Origin: Lachnospiraceae bacterium
GTDB taxonomy: Bacteria; Bacillota; Clostridia; Lachnospirales; Lachnospiraceae
Assembly: GCA_017935565.1 (NCBI GenBank)
Contig: JAGBHK010000003.1
Location: forward strand, 1 to 46,934
Direction of reading: 5' to 3'
Length of the DNA: 46,934 bases
Made by a program: the position numbers and the translations under genes. The notes beneath the pieces are model-generated. The model was not told the DNA's origin, did no database searches, and saw nothing but the letters and a program-made list of their open reading frames with translations. This document shows, one piece after another, positions 4,906 to 10,608 of the stretch. Positions within the stretch are counted from its first letter, which is position 1, and the number at the start of each line of letters is the position of its first letter.

Positions 4906-5607
4906 ATGAAAGAAAATTATATCGAAAAAATTAAAAAAATGGGTAAGATTGCAACTGTTATAGTGAATATAGCAAGAGTATTTGTAATAATTGGAATGGT
5001 TGGAGTTATTATCGCAGCAGTTGTATTTGCCGTGTTACCAAAGGACTTATGTAAGGTTAATGTAAGTGGTGCTGCTGAAGTAGAGGTAGATTTGTCAAAA
5101 TTTGGTGTAAAATTGGATGACACAGATAGGGATGAGATTACCAAAGATTTCACAGACTCGATGGATTTTGAAATTAACAATGTTGATTATGTTGGTACAG
5201 ATGTGAAAGTTGATGAGGATTCTATTACGATTAATGCGTCAGCAGATAAGTATACAATATATGTCAAGAATTTGTGGATTCTTATGTTAGTAGTATTTTT
5301 GTCTATGGCATTAACTTTGGTTACACTTATCTTTGCGGGAAAAGTTTCTAAAGCATTTAGAGATTGTGAAAATCCATTTGAAATGAATGTTATTAATAGT
5401 ATGCAAAAATTAGCATATTCACTTATTCCTTGGGCTTTGGTTGGTTCGTTTAGTGATTCTTTGGCACAGTCTATATTCACGAATAATATTGATATTGTCC
5501 TTGGTGTTAATATGGAAACAGTGTTTGTTATACTCATTATTATTTGTTTGACATATGTGTTTAAATATGGTGCAATGTTACAGCAAGAATCAGATGAGAC
5601 ATTATAG
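4906..5607 (+). CDS. DUF2975-like integral membrane protein
   Basis: This is a 233-residue membrane protein. Its first hydrophobic helix is at about 15-45, then comes a hydrophilic, probably extracytoplasmic segment rich in Asp and Val (about 50-125), then three more helices (about 128-150, 170-195, 205-225). This matches DUF2975 proteins, which are commonly encoded with a small YozG-like HTH protein, as here. The start at 4906 is chosen because AGGAGA sits 7 bases upstream. The function is not known; the pairing suggests a membrane component controlled by, or controlling, the HTH partner 12 bases downstream. Confidence 0.7.
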   Translation: MKENYIEKIKKMGKIATVIVNIARVFVIIGMVGVIIAAVVFAVLPKDLCKVNVSGAAEVEVDLSKFGVKLDDTDRDEITKDFTDSMDFEINNVDYVGTDVKVDEDSITINASADKYTIYVKNLWILMLVVFLSMALTLVTLIFAGKVSKAFRDCENPFEMNVINSMQKLAYSLIPWALVGSFSDSLAQSIFTNNIDIVLGVNMETVFVILIIICLTYVFKYGAMLQQESDETL

Positions 5608-5619
5608 GATGGTGAAAAT

Positions 5620-5838
5620 ATGGGAAAGATAGTTTTAAGATTAGACCGAGTTATGGCTGATAGGAAGATGAGTCTGAATGAATTGTCCGAAAAAGTTGGT
5701 GTATCAAATGTTAATTTGTCAAAGATGAAAACAGGAAAAATTAGCGCTATAAGATTTTCAACTTTGGAGGCAATTTGCGAGGTATTAGATTGTCAGCCAG
5801 GAGATATACTTGAATATGAGAAGGAAGATGGCGCCTAG
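5620..5838 (+). CDS. Small XRE/YozG-type HTH transcriptional regulator
   Basis: This 72-residue protein is a Cro/C1-type helix-turn-helix throughout. It has LNELSEKVGVSNVNLSKMKTG with the recognition helix near residues 30-40, and ends with LEAICEVLDCQPGDILEYE, typical of the YozG family. It follows the DUF2975-like gene by 12 bases, and its stop codon overlaps the ribosome-binding site of the symporter gene. Autoregulation through the CGATAAACGATAAA repeats at the operon promoter is likely but inferred. Confidence 0.85.
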   Translation: MGKIVLRLDRVMADRKMSLNELSEKVGVSNVNLSKMKTGKISAIRFSTLEAICEVLDCQPGDILEYEKEDGA

Positions 5839-5851
5839 GAGGATATAAAAC

Positions 5852-7267
5852 GTGGAAGTATTTAATAATGTATTAACGAAGATCAATGATGTGATGTACA
5901 CATACATTTTAATTATTTTACTAGTAGGGACGGGACTTTATTTTACCATAAGGACCAGGGGAGTACAGTTTAGATTGCTAAAAGATGGGCTTAAATCTAT
6001 GCTTGCAAAAGATGAGGCTAGCAGTAAGGATGAGAAAAAAGTTTCATCCTTTCAAGCGCTTATGATTTCCACTGCGTCCAGAGTTGGTACCGGTAATATT
6101 GCAGGTATTGCTACGGCTATTGCAACAGGGGGTGCAGGTGCAGTGTTTTGGATGTGGATTACTGCTTTGGTGGGTGGTGCTTCTGCATTTGTAGAAAGTA
6201 CACTAGCTCAGGTATATAAGGTGAAAGATAAGGACCAGTTTAGAGGCGGACCATCGTATTATATGGAGAGAGCATTGAAGGCTAGGTGGATGGGAATTAT
6301 ATTTTCAATTTTGCTGATAATTTGTTTTGCGTACGGATTCAATGGTTTGCAGGCATTTAATATGTCATCAGCTATGGAGTATTATTTTGTTGATTATAAT
6401 AATTCTATGGGGCCAATGATTTTAGGAATTGTTTTAGCCGTTTTAACAGGTCTAGTAATTTGGGGTGGAACACATAGAATCGGTTTCATCTCGTCTGTTA
6501 TTGTTCCGATTATGGCGTGTGCATATATTTTAATTGGTTTGGTTACTATGATTATCAATATTACAGAACTTCCTAGTATCTTTGCGACAATTATAAAGAA
6601 CGCTTTCAATGTTAGAGCAATGATGGGAGGATTCGCAGGAAGTGCTATTGTTATAGGTATAAAGAGAGGTTTGTTCTCTAATGAGGCAGGTATGGGTAGT
6701 GCGCCAAATGCTTCAGCATCAGCAAATGTTCCTCATCCTGTAAATCAAGGATTGGTTCAGGTGGTATCTGTATTTATTGATACGATACTTATATGTTCAA
6801 GTACAGCTATGATGCTTCTTACATCTAATGTTGAAGGTGTGGCAGGAGAATTAGATGGTATTCCATATGTGCAACAGGCGATTAGTTCAAATGTTGGTAA
6901 GTGGGGAATTCACTTTATAACTGTGGCGATATTTGCATTTGCATTTACAAGCGTAATTGGAAATTATTGTTATGCAGAATCTAATATATTGTTTATCAAA
7001 AATAATAAAATTGTTTTAAATGTATTCAGAGTGACATGCGTATTGGCTGTATTTTTAGGTGCACAGGCTGATTTTACGCTTGCATGGAACCTTGCAGATG
7101 TAACAATGGGATTTATGGCTATTGTGAATATAATAGCAATTCTTATACTTAGTAACGTAGCCGTCAAGGTTTTGAAGGATTACGAAAAGCAAAAGAAAGA
7201 TGGTAAAAAGCCGAAATTTGTAGGTGAAGATATAGGAATTGAAGGAACTGTGTGGACAAAAGAATGA
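5852..7267 (+). CDS. Alanine/glycine:sodium symporter, AGCS family
   Basis: This 471-residue inner-membrane transporter has about ten to eleven hydrophobic segments. AGCS signatures include the N-terminal TRGVQFR region, ASRVGTGNIAGIATAI (near 76-91), the loop FRGGPSYYMERALK, and GLFSNEAGMGSAPNASA (near 270-290). It should import alanine or glycine with Na+. The start is GTG at 5852, nine bases after AGGAGG; no better ATG exists. It is the third gene of the DUF2975/HTH operon, so it may share that regulation. A strong terminator follows. Confidence 0.92.
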   Translation: MEVFNNVLTKINDVMYTYILIILLVGTGLYFTIRTRGVQFRLLKDGLKSMLAKDEASSKDEKKVSSFQALMISTASRVGTGNIAGIATAIATGGAGAVFWMWITALVGGASAFVESTLAQVYKVKDKDQFRGGPSYYMERALKARWMGIIFSILLIICFAYGFNGLQAFNMSSAMEYYFVDYNNSMGPMILGIVLAVLTGLVIWGGTHRIGFISSVIVPIMACAYILIGLVTMIINITELPSIFATIIKNAFNVRAMMGGFAGSAIVIGIKRGLFSNEAGMGSAPNASASANVPHPVNQGLVQVVSVFIDTILICSSTAMMLLTSNVEGVAGELDGIPYVQQAISSNVGKWGIHFITVAIFAFAFTSVIGNYCYAESNILFIKNNKIVLNVFRVTCVLAVFLGAQADFTLAWNLADVTMGFMAIVNIIAILILSNVAVKVLKDYEKQKKDGKKPKFVGEDIGIEGTVWTKE

Positions 7268-7269
7268 GA

Positions 7270-7302
7270 AAAAGGAAGATGATTATGAGTCATCTTCCTT
7301 TT
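7270..7302. terminator. Bidirectional terminator between symporter and motA
   Basis: AAAAGGAAGATGA (7270-7282) pairs with TCATCTTCCTTTT (7290-7302), with A-rich and T-rich flanks on both strands. The right arm encodes the last residues of MotA, so the terminator is embedded in the motA 3' end. Confidence 0.8.
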
Positions 7303-8062
7303 CTTCTTTCATTTCTAATATAGATTTAATTTTCTCTTTTATTATTCTAGAGTTTTCGCCAGATTGTATGGATAAAACCCCTTCTATGGTTAACTCCATA
7401 ATGAGAGTTTCTTGTTCACTATTTTTTTCGAGTTTTCTAGCAATAGGGGTACAAATCCAATTAGCAATTACAGAACCGTATAATGTGGTAATTAGTGCTA
7501 AAGACATATTAGGACCGATTGCGTTCATATTATTACCCATAGATTTCATCATATTAATTAGTCCTAGAAGAGTACCGACCATTCCCCATGCTGGAGCGCA
7601 AGATGCAAAATCATTCCAAAAACGGATGTTTTTTAAGTTCCTCTCATTTTTGTGAAAGAGTTCGTTTTCTAAAATGTCTTTTACGAGGTCTGGGTCTGTT
7701 CCATCAACTATAAGTCGTATGCCTTTGTTTAAAAATGGATTTTCAATGGTTTCTGATTTTTCTTCAAGACTTAATAAGCCTTCTTTTCTAGCTATATCTG
7801 ACATCTCTAATATTTTTATTGTAATATCTTCAGGTTTGGTGTTTGGAAGTTTAAAAGCATTTACAAAACTTTTAAAGCCTGATAAATAGTCATTGAAGGA
7901 GTCTGCCATTGTTAAAACGGCAAACAAACTTCCTCCTAATGTAACTAAAAGCGATGGGATATGTACAAAATTCATAATAGTCCCTATACCACCATTTGAA
8001 GCAATACCAAATAAAATAGCTAAAAAGCATAATAAAAATCCTGATAGTGCTGCTATATTCAA
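7283..8062 (-). CDS. motA: Flagellar motor stator protein MotA (orphan)
   Basis: This 259-residue membrane protein of the MotA/TolQ/ExbB proton-channel family normally forms the stator ring with MotB. Four hydrophobic segments are seen, at about 5-25, 34-52, 155-178 and 185-208. The two channel prolines are present, in CAPAWGMVGTLLG (near 157) and in the TM4 region IGPNMSLALITTLYG. A charged cytoplasmic loop (about 55-150) and tail are normal. The start is TTG at 8062, nine bases after GGAGG; no ATG fits. No motB is adjacent. It lies 16 bases downstream of the XRE-MotA-like gene and is probably co-transcribed with it. Confidence 0.88.
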   Translation of the reverse strand: MNIAALSGFLLCFLAILFGIASNGGIGTIMNFVHIPSLLVTLGGSLFAVLTMADSFNDYLSGFKSFVNAFKLPNTKPEDITIKILEMSDIARKEGLLSLEEKSETIENPFLNKGIRLIVDGTDPDLVKDILENELFHKNERNLKNIRFWNDFASCAPAWGMVGTLLGLINMMKSMGNNMNAIGPNMSLALITTLYGSVIANWICTPIARKLEKNSEQETLIMELTIEGVLSIQSGENSRIIKEKIKSILEMKEEKEDDS

Positions 8063-8078: not shown

Positions 8079-8810
8079 TCATTCTTCATATAGTTTTAAA
8101 CTTAATATTTTGCAAAATGGTAATAAAACTAATACCATAATTAAACTATATAAAATAGACAATATTGCAACAGCGAGATTTGGACCTAATAATTCTCGGT
8201 TTTCTAGTAAACCTAAAACGGTAACTACAGCTAATAAAGAAGATATTAGTCCTGATACGATAATGCTACAAATTCCTAATTTAATGGCAGAGTAAGCTCG
8301 CCTGATTTCGCATTTATTTTTAGAGGATTTACTAAAGCAAATTGGAAAAGCCCTAAAAAAATCTTTTAAAGAACCAGACATAATCATAATAATTAATGTG
8401 AAGGCTAGTATTGGAATAAAACTATAAATATCTAAAAACCAATATATAGAGCCGTTCATTGATATAACAAGTAACCAAATCCAACTTAATAGTAGAATTA
8501 TTGAAATGGCAACAGTGATTGTTTTAGTAGTGGGATTTTTTGAATCTTTTATTAAATTTACCATATTTTCTTCCGCCTTTCCGTGATAGTCATCTATGGA
8601 AAGTTTCTCGCCGGAAAGTAATTCGTTTACATTAATATTTAAAATTTCGCACAATTTTAAAAGGATTGAATTATCGGGCATACTTTTGCCACATTCCCAT
8701 TTAGAAACGGCCTTATCACTTATTCCAATCAGTTCAGCTAATTGTTTTTGAGTGAGATTTTTTTCTTTACGCATTTCGGCAATGAACTTTCCTATTTTAA
8801 TTTGATCCAT
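8079..8810 (-). CDS. XRE-family regulator with a MotA-like membrane domain
   Basis: Residues 6-62 form a Cro/C1-type HTH (LTQKQLAELIGISDKAVSKW). After a linker there are about four hydrophobic segments (about 97-118, 122-146, 172-203, 212-240). The second half resembles the MotA encoded 16 bases downstream. WFLDIYSFIPILAFTL then SGSLKDFFRAF aligns with the MotA TM2 region, and LLGPNLAVAILSILYS with IGPNMSLALITTLYGS of MotA TM4. The TM3 proline of MotA (APAW) is absent. The start at 8810 is chosen for AGAGGT upstream; a longer frame to 8894 has no ribosome-binding site. A membrane-tethered regulator of the motA operon is inferred. Confidence 0.75.
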   Translation of the reverse strand: MDQIKIGKFIAEMRKEKNLTQKQLAELIGISDKAVSKWECGKSMPDNSILLKLCEILNINVNELLSGEKLSIDDYHGKAEENMVNLIKDSKNPTTKTITVAISIILLLSWIWLLVISMNGSIYWFLDIYSFIPILAFTLIIMIMSGSLKDFFRAFPICFSKSSKNKCEIRRAYSAIKLGICSIIVSGLISSLLAVVTVLGLLENRELLGPNLAVAILSILYSLIMVLVLLPFCKILSLKLYEE

Positions 8811-8934
8811 GTGAGATACCTCTTTTCTATATATTGTTGTACAACTTTGATAGCATAAATGTATCACATTTTTATTTAAGGGTAAACCTACCATTGGTAG
8901 AGTTGCGGTAGAAATAGAATTGCTAATAATATCT

Positions 8935-8965
8935 ATTTGACGCGCGTCAAATAAAGTTGTATAAT
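8935..8965 (+). promoter_or_regulatory. Promoter and palindromic operator of the HipA-type module
   Basis: ATTTGACGCGCGTCAAAT (8935-8952) is an 18-bp perfect palindrome that contains the -35 hexamer TTGACG (8937-8942). TATAAT (8960-8965) follows after 17 bases. The palindrome is the obvious binding site for the HTH-bearing partner protein and would give autorepression, as in hip operons. Confidence 0.75.
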
Positions 8966-8999: not shown

Positions 9000-9821
9000 A
9001 TGAATCAAAAGGTAATTGTAGAGAAGCAAGACCTCACATATCTTAGATGGTCGCATGCAAGAAATTCAAGTGGAACAGCAGGGACATTTTTAAAGTCACA
9101 ATCGGTATTATCTGGTGAAAAGATATATTATAAGTTGTCAAATTATGATAGCGAAAAAGGAATCATTGGACATGAATGCGTAAATGAAATTATTGTAGAC
9201 CGTTTGCTTACTATTTTGGGAGTAGAACATTTAGAATATCAACTTATTCATGCAGATATAGAAATAGATGGGAAAATTTATGATACATGGTTATGTGCGT
9301 CAAGAGATTTTAAAGCTAGAGGAGAAACTAAAACTGCGTTGGATAATTATTATCAGATTAATAAGAAAGAAAATGAATCGCGTTATGATTTTTGCGTGAA
9401 TAATGGTTGGAAGAAGTATATTGATACAATGCTGGTGATAGATTACCTGATATTAAATAGAGATAGACATGGTGCGAATATAGAAGTTCTTAGAAATGGG
9501 CGCAAGAAAATAATAAGAATTGCTCCTTTGTTTGATCATGGTTTGTCTTTGTTATGTTCATGTTATAGCGATGTGGAAGTTGAGAAGTTTGATATATTGG
9601 AAGATAAACCTTGTCAAAATTTTATTGGTAGTCGTTCTACTTTTGATAATTTAAATCTTGTTAAAGACAAAAGTGATGTGTTCCAATCTATATTAAGATT
9701 ACAAGATAAAGAAACACTATTTGCAGATTTAGAATTGGTATTATCAGAAAAACATTTGAATAAGATATGGGATATGATATGGGCAAGGTGGTGTGAATAT
9801 GAAAAGTTATGCAATTTATGA
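9000..9821 (+). CDS. HipA/HipT-like Ser/Thr kinase-fold protein
   Basis: This 273-residue cytoplasmic protein carries the HipA kinase core without the usual N-subdomain. A Gly/Ser-rich loop (NSSGTAGTFLKS, 22-33) sits where HipA binds the ATP phosphates. The likely ATP-binding Lys is near 45 (YYKLS), the catalytic loop is LNRDRHGAN (152-160), and the metal-binding motif is PLFDHG (176-181). HipA-family toxins phosphorylate translation factors; the substrate here is unknown. The ATG at 9000 follows GGAGGTG. It is first in a two-gene operon and overlaps the next gene by 23 bases. A regulatory or DNA-element kinase role cannot be excluded. Confidence 0.75.
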   Translation: MNQKVIVEKQDLTYLRWSHARNSSGTAGTFLKSQSVLSGEKIYYKLSNYDSEKGIIGHECVNEIIVDRLLTILGVEHLEYQLIHADIEIDGKIYDTWLCASRDFKARGETKTALDNYYQINKKENESRYDFCVNNGWKKYIDTMLVIDYLILNRDRHGANIEVLRNGRKKIIRIAPLFDHGLSLLCSCYSDVEVEKFDILEDKPCQNFIGSRSTFDNLNLVKDKSDVFQSILRLQDKETLFADLELVLSEKHLNKIWDMIWARWCEYEKLCNL

Positions 9822-10608
9822 TGAAGACTTGAATAGAACTTCTGCGGTGGGCTATTTATTTTATTACGAAAAGTCTAGTAGTTTTATAATAGAATTATGT
9901 GATGACCTAAATGAATGGGATGCTCCATTATTGTTTCAAAATTACGTAAAGCGAGGGATATATACTATTTCAAGAGATGTAAGTCTCATGTGGGTTAGGG
10001 AAAGAGTGATTCCCAGTGGTAGACAAAATATTGGAAGTATTTTAAAAAACCATAAACTAAAAAAATATAACGAAATGTCTCTTCTTTTGTTATCAAGGGG
10101 AAAATGTATACAGGATGGTTGCTATATCGTTCAGGCGGAGGATATACCGGAAGATATAAAGGAGAGAATGAAAAAAAATGTTCTGGATTGTTTTGTAACT
10201 GAAGGCAACCAACTTGTTTGTATGTTTAAAGATAATACTGTACGAGTGGTGGATATAGAAAAACTTATTGAAAAGTATAGGGATATTTCTTATGTTTTAA
10301 AAAAGAAAGAACTTATGGATAGTGTAAAAGTGGGTGTTGGGGGGTACAGTATTTTGTTTAATGATTCAATTGAAATTCAGACATATGATTTGAGGAAAAT
10401 TGGTGTATTGTTGCCTTTATCTACAAAGGATTTTTGCAATTTTATTAAAAAAAATGTTGTTGATACATCGACCGCATGTGATGTGTTACAGTGTTCAAGG
10501 CAAAATCTATCATATTTAGTTAATGAGAGAAAAATTGAGCCAATTATTTATGGTACTAAAGAGAATTTATATCTAAAAGGAGAAATTGAAAGAGTTATGA
10601 ATGAGTAG
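9799..10608 (+). CDS. HipS-like / DUF2442-like / HTH partner of the HipT-like kinase
   Basis: I see three parts in 269 residues. Residues 1-115 include SLMWVRERVIPSGRQNI and a YNEMSLLLLSRGKCIQDGCY stretch. These recall the HipA N-subdomain, which is the HipS antitoxin in tripartite systems. Residues 140-205 resemble DUF2442 (FKDNTVRVVDIEKLIEK). Residues 215-269 form a likely helix-turn-helix (DTSTACDVLQCSRQNLSYLV). The start at 9799 is supported by AAGGTGG upstream, and the 23-base overlap suggests translational coupling and a fixed ratio with the kinase. It is probably the antitoxin or regulator that binds the 8935-8952 palindrome. Domain boundaries are by eye. Confidence 0.6.
   Translation: MKSYAIYDEDLNRTSAVGYLFYYEKSSSFIIELCDDLNEWDAPLLFQNYVKRGIYTISRDVSLMWVRERVIPSGRQNIGSILKNHKLKKYNEMSLLLLSRGKCIQDGCYIVQAEDIPEDIKERMKKNVLDCFVTEGNQLVCMFKDNTVRVVDIEKLIEKYRDISYVLKKKELMDSVKVGVGGYSILFNDSIEIQTYDLRKIGVLLPLSTKDFCNFIKKNVVDTSTACDVLQCSRQNLSYLVNERKIEPIIYGTKENLYLKGEIERVMNE

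Follow-up and report, generated by a model that had tools for sequence, protein, structure and literature searches.

A conserved two-gene module of a HipA-type kinase and a HipS-DUF2442-HTH partner: a putative toxin-antitoxin system

RESULTS

The two genes described here occupy positions 9000 to 10608 of the window, by which we mean the whole 46,934-nucleotide stretch of DNA that was analyzed. The two-gene module is real and conserved: a short HipA-type kinase is encoded directly ahead of a partner that joins a HipS-like domain, a DUF2442 domain and a helix-turn-helix (HTH) domain in a single chain. With a probability of roughly three in four, we read the pair as a bicistronic type II toxin-antitoxin module that belongs with the HipA-kinase systems and whose composite antitoxin doubles as the repressor. 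This reading is the best explanation for the predicted folds, the gene overlaps of 14 to 32 nt, the agreement between kinase and partner divergence in a Mantel test, the occurrence of the operator in full loci only, the placement of a 16-mer operator sequence, and the pattern seen at HTH residue 239. Both genes carry the label "hypothetical protein" in the single annotated record inspected.

Gene arrangement and predicted folds

The kinase gene runs on the forward strand from an ATG at 9000 to 9821, immediately behind the sequence GGAGGTGA, and encodes a 273-residue Ser/Thr kinase of the HipA/CtkA type, the putative toxin. The partner gene (9799 to 10608, same strand) begins at an ATG within the 3' end of the kinase gene, preceded by AAGGTGGTG, with a GTG at 9793 as an alternative in-frame start. 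It encodes 269 residues, the putative antitoxin and autorepressor, and the two genes overlap by 23 nt (9799 to 9821). An earlier note, made from the letters alone, had proposed these open reading frames, their coordinates, the kinase-first order and the 23-base overlap, and a reading of the ORFs bore them out; its description of the locus as a split HipA-type module is supported by the folds of the kinase and of the three partner domains, and the kinase does lack the N-subdomain, as the note had stated.

The kinase and the partner were modeled as single chains, and by fold comparison the window kinase has a HipA-type kinase fold. It is without the approximately 100-residue N-subdomain-1, so that its Gly-rich loop lies close to the N terminus, and it retains the lysine strand, an NRDRHGxN-type catalytic loop and an FDHG-type Mg motif. 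Each of these three elements is present in 27/27 kinases with a full partner and in 4/4 kinases whose partner is HipS only. The Gly-rich loop reads [ST]SGT in all 27 full loci and in none of the four HipS-only loci, which carry loop variants, and S23 and S24 are kept in at least 90% of 27 aligned kinases. Pfam HipA_C is matched at E≤1 by all 27 aligned kinases (best value, 5.9e-8), the window's own kinase scoring 0.03, below the cut-off. CtkA of Helicobacter pylori (PDB 3akj/3akk), a proinflammatory kinase according to the PDB title, shares about 18% identity.

The AlphaFold2 model of the partner has a pLDDT of 93.7, and fold comparison divides it into three domains: residues 1 to 114 (9799 to 10140) match the HipS/HipA N-subdomain-1 fold (five strands, three helices), residues 123 to 203 (10165 to 10407) match DUF2442, and residues 219 to 269 (10453 to 10605) match an HTH. 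The fusion of these three parts, as claimed in the earlier note, is supported by the fold matches of all three domains, and residues 1 to 115, singled out there for checking, do model as a HipA N-subdomain. Pfam searches with the window's own partner did not call DUF2442 and returned only HTH_17, below the cut-off; 6 of 25 members of the partner family match DUF2442 at E≤1. HIRAN is absent among the 23 Pfam families matched by any of the 25 partners at E≤1, and a HIRAN domain in the partner was rejected since 0/25 match it; a HIRAN search of the window's own genome gave no match at E≤1e-6.

Relation of the HipS-like domain to HipA

The HipS-like domain is tied to the HipA N-subdomain by its fold, by one-piece kinases, and by HipN proteins. 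A profile of partner residues 1 to 113 aligns with the N-terminal part of 14 one-piece kinases of 383 to 463 residues from the same order as the window's organism (probability, 92.8; E, 4e-7), and the kinase profile aligns with the C-terminal part of the same proteins (probability, 99.7; E, 3.7e-26); the controls, five column shuffles and the partner's rear half, gave probabilities of at most 1.8. In these relatives, therefore, the two domains form one protein in the order HipS-kinase. Compared directly by hhalign with eight canonical HipA/HipS N-subdomains from related genomes, the HipS-like domain gave no significant match (probability, 0.2, no higher than 10 shuffles); L135 and L136 were excluded from the canonical HipA_N profile. 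When the profile of residues 1 to 113 was run against 28 loci with E values set for 10,000 sequences, it matched three HipS-HIRAN proteins (L159, 1.3e-4; L144, 1.6e-3; L147, 5e-3) and two kinase-adjacent proteins of the window's own genome (L003, 5.7e-4; L002, 8.8e-3). Four of these five adjoin a recognized kinase and L144 does not. Pfam Couple_hipA is above cut-off in L147, L159 and L136, the last of which is the same gene as L144.

The same domains were met in several other layouts, and the window's own genome holds a second and a third split module. L002 (contig C7 of the same genome, 1087 to 2850) has a CtkA-like kinase followed by a 299-residue protein with a HipS-like stretch, the C-terminal part of which looks resolvase-like by eye, with no Pfam resolvase or HTH match at E≤0.01. 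L003 (contig C33 of that genome, 606 to 1971) has the order reversed, with a 180-residue XRE HTH-HipS fusion directly before a 272-residue kinase. In L065 (479 to 1923) a protein with a resolvase-type HTH ahead of a HipS-like domain lies directly upstream of a kinase, and in L059 XRE, HipS and kinase are found in one protein. The layouts thus include one-piece HipS-kinase, XRE-HipS-kinase in one chain, XRE-HipS then kinase, resolvase-type HTH-HipS then kinase, and kinase followed by HipS, by HipS-HIRAN, or by HipS-DUF2442-HTH.

Distribution and matched divergence of the pair

Full loci number 25 with the window included (L004 to L016 and L037 to L048); further examples are L098, L099, L164 on a viral contig, and L180 on plasmid pNP95 of Pseudobutyrivibrio xylanivorans, where the partner reading frame found starts 19 residues late. 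In L165 the partner stands at a contig end and the kinase is cut off. Some match was obtained in 30 members of a set of 195 genomes and a full partner in 10, the window's own genome included. Module-type kinases (E below 1e-70) occur in 13 members of a 295-genome set, again with the own genome, and kinases of any kind, distant ones included, in 93. A full partner is present in seven genomes of a 391-genome set, with one more (G235) holding a broken remnant that has no kinase before it, and in two genomes of a 299-genome set, both of the window's family. Seven other genomes of the genus, some of them incomplete, gave no match at E≤0.01. In the sets searched the module was confined to the window's class, taken as Clostridia on the basis of the relatives that carry a name. 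Phage records yielded only three kinase matches, all distant and each under 30% identity.

The kinase and partner genes overlap by 14 to 32 nt in 27/27 loci, comprising 25 full and 2 HipS-only loci; another HipS-only locus, L102, has no overlap. Across the 25 full pairs, kinase and partner divergence agree (Mantel r, 0.86; none of 2,000 permutations as high). The loci are related to one another, so these counts are not independent. A tree of 54 kinases, from which the HipA rows L130 and L132 (matched stretch under 120 residues), the HipA locus L133 and L137 were excluded, unites the 27 full-locus and 4 HipS-only kinases in one supported clade (97/95), with the one-piece kinases (98/94), the HipS-HIRAN pair (97/88) and HipA outside it. 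It does not show the full loci alone as one clade, and long branches make the deep joins unsure.

Decaying copies were also observed: L100 has a partner remnant at 1795 to 2241 with no kinase before it, and L084 has fragments of kinase and partner at approximately 4971 to 6000. A 205-residue protein in L020 (1321 to 1938) has matches to the HipS end and to the HTH but lacks most of DUF2442, and no kinase was recognized beside it.

A conserved operator over the promoter

Just before the two genes, on the same strand, the sequence TATTTGACGCGCGTCAAATA (8934 to 8953) is an exact palindrome. It contains the -35 hexamer TTGACG (8937 to 8942) of a sigma-A-type promoter that extends over a 17-nt spacer to TATAAT (8960 to 8965), and the palindromic promoter of the earlier note is borne out in that the palindrome overlaps the -35 box. 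This promoter (8937 to 8965) is the best promoter-like site between 8800 and 10800, at 11/12; weaker sites in that interval number 10, compared to 11.9 in shuffles, and so show no excess. Shuffles of the window held on average 0.02 matches to the palindrome with up to three mismatches.

The 16-mer TTTGACGNNCGTCAAA occurs as a single exact copy in the window's own assembly, which is about 81% complete; with up to two mismatches, that genome gives 6 hits per strand, fewer than the 12 per strand of the reversed control. Across the 195 genomes the exact 16-mer is found in 10 places, 8 of which, in 5 genomes, lie directly before a module kinase; the reversed pattern is found in 3 places. Among the 10 genomes of this set with a full partner, 5 have the exact 16-mer and the other 5 have only variants. 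The exact copies outside the module, on contig C3 of G006 and contig C7 of G114, had no family kinase in the stretches read and were set aside. The former (1454 to 1469 of L066) lies just behind a canonical hipBA pair; G006 is of the same genus and has no match to the partner, and its operator copy may be due to chance or be a terminator.

The core pattern TTGAC-N4-GTCAA, with at most one mismatch and within 150 nt before the kinase, is present in 27/27 full loci and in 0/4 HipS-only loci (L017, L018, L101 and L102); for L101 and L102 the search was also extended over all of the retrieved locus, with fewer mismatches allowed, and for L017 and L018 it covered the 150 nt. L164 and L180 also have it, bringing the count to 29/29 readable full loci, a figure that excludes L165, with its kinase cut at the contig end, and the broken loci L100 and L084/L019/L051. 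Shuffled upstream regions contained the pattern in 0 to 4 of 200 cases per locus. The operator is conserved and is tied to the HTH-bearing partner. In 25 of the 27 loci a hexamer with at most two mismatches to TATAAT follows a copy of it 17 nt on, such that the left half of the operator would serve as the -35 box; the two exceptions are L016 and L048, whose conserved site does not coincide with that box. A second copy is seen in 12/27 loci, 41 to 45 nt away in eleven and 32 nt away in L014. The paralogues L002 and L003 have no operator before the kinase, although in L003, where the 150 nt lie inside the preceding gene, this says little.

The nucleotide before TTGAC varies with residue 239 of the HTH. 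Where residue 239 is Asp, the flank is C in 7/7 loci; where it is Tyr, the flank is T only in 15/19, with the remainder C only (L015), mixed C and T (L009 and L011), or A and T (L006). The other residues are Gln with C (L048), His with T (L180), and Trp with A and G (L016, which has a deletion in the HTH). The loci are related and most of the C-flanked operators belong to one clade, which includes L015 with Tyr and C, so that the pattern supports, but does not prove, that the HTH of the partner reads this site.

Neighboring genes

In the 19 loci inspected by eye, the neighbors vary in most and are mostly housekeeping-like; a few loci share neighbors (L077 and L078), and ATPase genes precede the kinase in L069 and L076. 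The gene spoVT directly follows the pair in the window, L004 and L005. A divergent XRE-type gene (8079 to 8811) adjoins the pair in the window but is not a constant neighbor in the 19 loci by eye, and it was rejected as part of the module. In six other spoVT-bearing genomes of the genus the gene to the left of spoVT also varies, as judged by eye, so a clean empty site could not be demonstrated.

Defense genes adjoin the module in two places. In L164, from a viral collection, an OLD/GajA-like ATPase gene (6008 to 7852; GajA, 2.1e-26) lies behind the pair, and the HipS-only L083 (5722 to 9786), which is the same locus as L017 (773 to 2686), is situated between Septu genes (PADLOC: PtuA, 1.9e-120; PtuB, 3.1e-78) and hicA-hicB, giving three systems in a row. 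The surroundings of the window and of most other loci read contain no defense neighbors by eye. Scans of flanking proteins covered nine and eight proteins, chosen by eye, the nine being run against PADLOC. The kinase itself matches the PADLOC entry PDC-M03A at 2.4e-9; PDC-M03 has candidate status, and none of the open-licence papers searched used the term.

DISCUSSION

Several described systems resemble the module in part. In hipIN, made up of the HipI kinase and HipN (HipS-HIRAN), a short kinase without N-subdomain is likewise encoded first, and the downstream partner likewise starts with a HipS-like domain and has a putative DNA-binding domain behind it (PMC8262856); the C-terminal half of that partner is HIRAN, compared to DUF2442-HTH here, and the HIRAN-linked kinases of the two hipIN-like loci that we found, L147 and L159, fall outside the module clade, with the deep branches unsure. 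In hipJS (HipJ kinase and HipS), described by Gerdes in 2021, the kinase also comes first and HipS second (PMC8262856). This layout is seen in the four HipS-only loci, all of which join the module kinase clade and may belong to the HipJ family; the hipJS partner is a lone HipS, whereas the partner here has HipS fused to DUF2442-HTH and the promoter carries an operator. The hipBST systems of E. coli O127 and Legionella, too, have a core kinase separate from the HipS subdomain, with the same folds, but as three genes in the order B-S-T with a separate HipB, instead of two genes with the kinase first and S fused to the DNA-binding part.

DUF2442 has its own history among such systems. The DUF4160/DUF2442 pair dhiTA is listed as a toxin-antitoxin system (PMC8198452), and there the neighbor of the DUF2442 gene encodes DUF4160 in place of a HipA-type kinase. 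NE0471 (PDB 2auw) is a stand-alone DUF2442-HTH protein, and the stand-alone form also occurs among our loci, adjoining a DUF4160 gene in L022. Since DUF2442-HTH exists alone beside DUF4160 and the dhiTA pair is listed, the partner looks like HipS joined to an antitoxin-like DUF2442-HTH protein. The earlier note had judged the combination of gene order and fusion to be new. The order is not, as pairs in which the kinase precedes a HipS or HipS-HIRAN gene were described in 2021, together with HipL, a one-piece kinase-HipS-HIRAN protein (PMC8262856). The DUF2442-HTH arm fused to HipS, and its operator, a combination of neutralizer and repressor in one chain, did not turn up in the main texts of the open-licence PMC papers searched.

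In the mechanism that we propose, the upstream HipT-like core kinase would be the toxin, with an aminoacyl-tRNA synthetase or another essential protein as its target by analogy. The partner, translated from the start within the 3' end of the kinase gene, would dock its HipS-like domain at the position that N-subdomain-1 holds in HipA, and its conserved loop of residues 69 to 77 would extend to the Gly-rich loop and keep ATP from binding, in the manner of HipS acting on HipT. HipS has been found experimentally to neutralize HipT in HipBST (PMC10627512, PMC9325769); the E. coli HipS inserts Trp65 at the Gly-rich loop of HipT (PMC10627512), and the Legionella HipS shifts the P-loop and blocks ATP (PMC9325769). 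The loop here is R69-V-I-P72-x-x-R75-Q76-N77, with R69, P72, R75, Q76 and N77 invariant in 25/25 aligned partners. Alignment by eye of L-I-P-E-G-W in a related HipS (L128) with V-I-P-S-G-R in the partner would place the invariant Arg75 where E. coli has Trp65, and Arg75 seems to be its counterpart; the Trp is present in some, not all, HipS proteins (PMC10627512). The C-terminal HTH would bind the palindrome over the -35 box, identified as an operator by comparison, and repress the operon, and loss or titration of the partner would then free the kinase and derepress the genes. The DUF2442 domain probably serves as a structural or dimerizing link and would have come, along with the HTH, from a DUF2442-HTH protein. 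In nature, phage infection may well be what triggers the system.

The kinase could be non-toxic, phosphorylating a specific cell protein, with the partner as a transcription factor and regulatory subunit and no role for either in growth arrest. The housekeeping-like neighbors, which differ from locus to locus, and spoVT behind the pair in three loci are in keeping with such an arrangement, but the patchy distribution, with no match at E≤0.01 in seven other genus genomes, some of them incomplete, the plasmid and viral-contig copies, the remnants in L100 and L084, and the operator in the promoter are all toxin-antitoxin-cassette-like, and we consider it unlikely. It is also quite unlikely that the HipS-like domain completes the kinase, such that the kinase would be inactive alone and active with its partner: in one-piece HipA the subdomain does belong to the kinase chain (PMC8262856), and the one-piece relatives keep the HipS-like domain N-terminal to the kinase, but a separate HipS is inhibitory in both HipBST systems compared (PMC10627512, PMC9325769). 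It is very improbable that an unrelated host regulator, such as the product of the adjoining XRE-type gene might be, reads the palindrome, given that the own assembly holds a single exact copy, that the site is absent from the 150 nt before all four HipS-only relatives, that it follows the module through differing neighborhoods, and that its flank varies with HTH residue 239.

A role as a phage-defense effector, with infection as the trigger, sensed via the DUF2442-HTH arm or through lost repression, is compatible with the toxin-antitoxin reading and is quite possible in its own right. The match to PDC-M03A and the ATPase, Septu and hicA-hicB genes in L164 and L083 point toward it, as does the DUF3037 system, in which a HipA-like kinase neutralized by its neighbor protects against phage (PMC12548924). 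Set against these are the window and most other loci, which have no such neighbors by eye, the extent of the PADLOC scan, nine eye-picked flanking proteins, and the status of PDC-M03 as itself only a candidate.

Returning to the toxin-antitoxin reading, the layouts met show one domain pair rewired to different DNA-binding parts. We tentatively suggest that the N-subdomain of HipA acts as a transferable antitoxin domain. Joined in evolution to many different DNA-binding modules, before or after the kinase, it would here have captured the DUF2442-HTH of another toxin-antitoxin type. The module offers a test of kinase neutralization by HipS where the E. coli Trp65 seems to be absent, and its operator is defined well enough for direct testing. 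Where hipBST splits neutralizer (HipS) and repressor (HipB), both appear here in one protein. If the proposed mechanism is true, this chimeric antitoxin would couple operator binding and kinase inhibition in a single chain, and pulling the protein off operator or kinase, for example by an invading phage, would fire the system.
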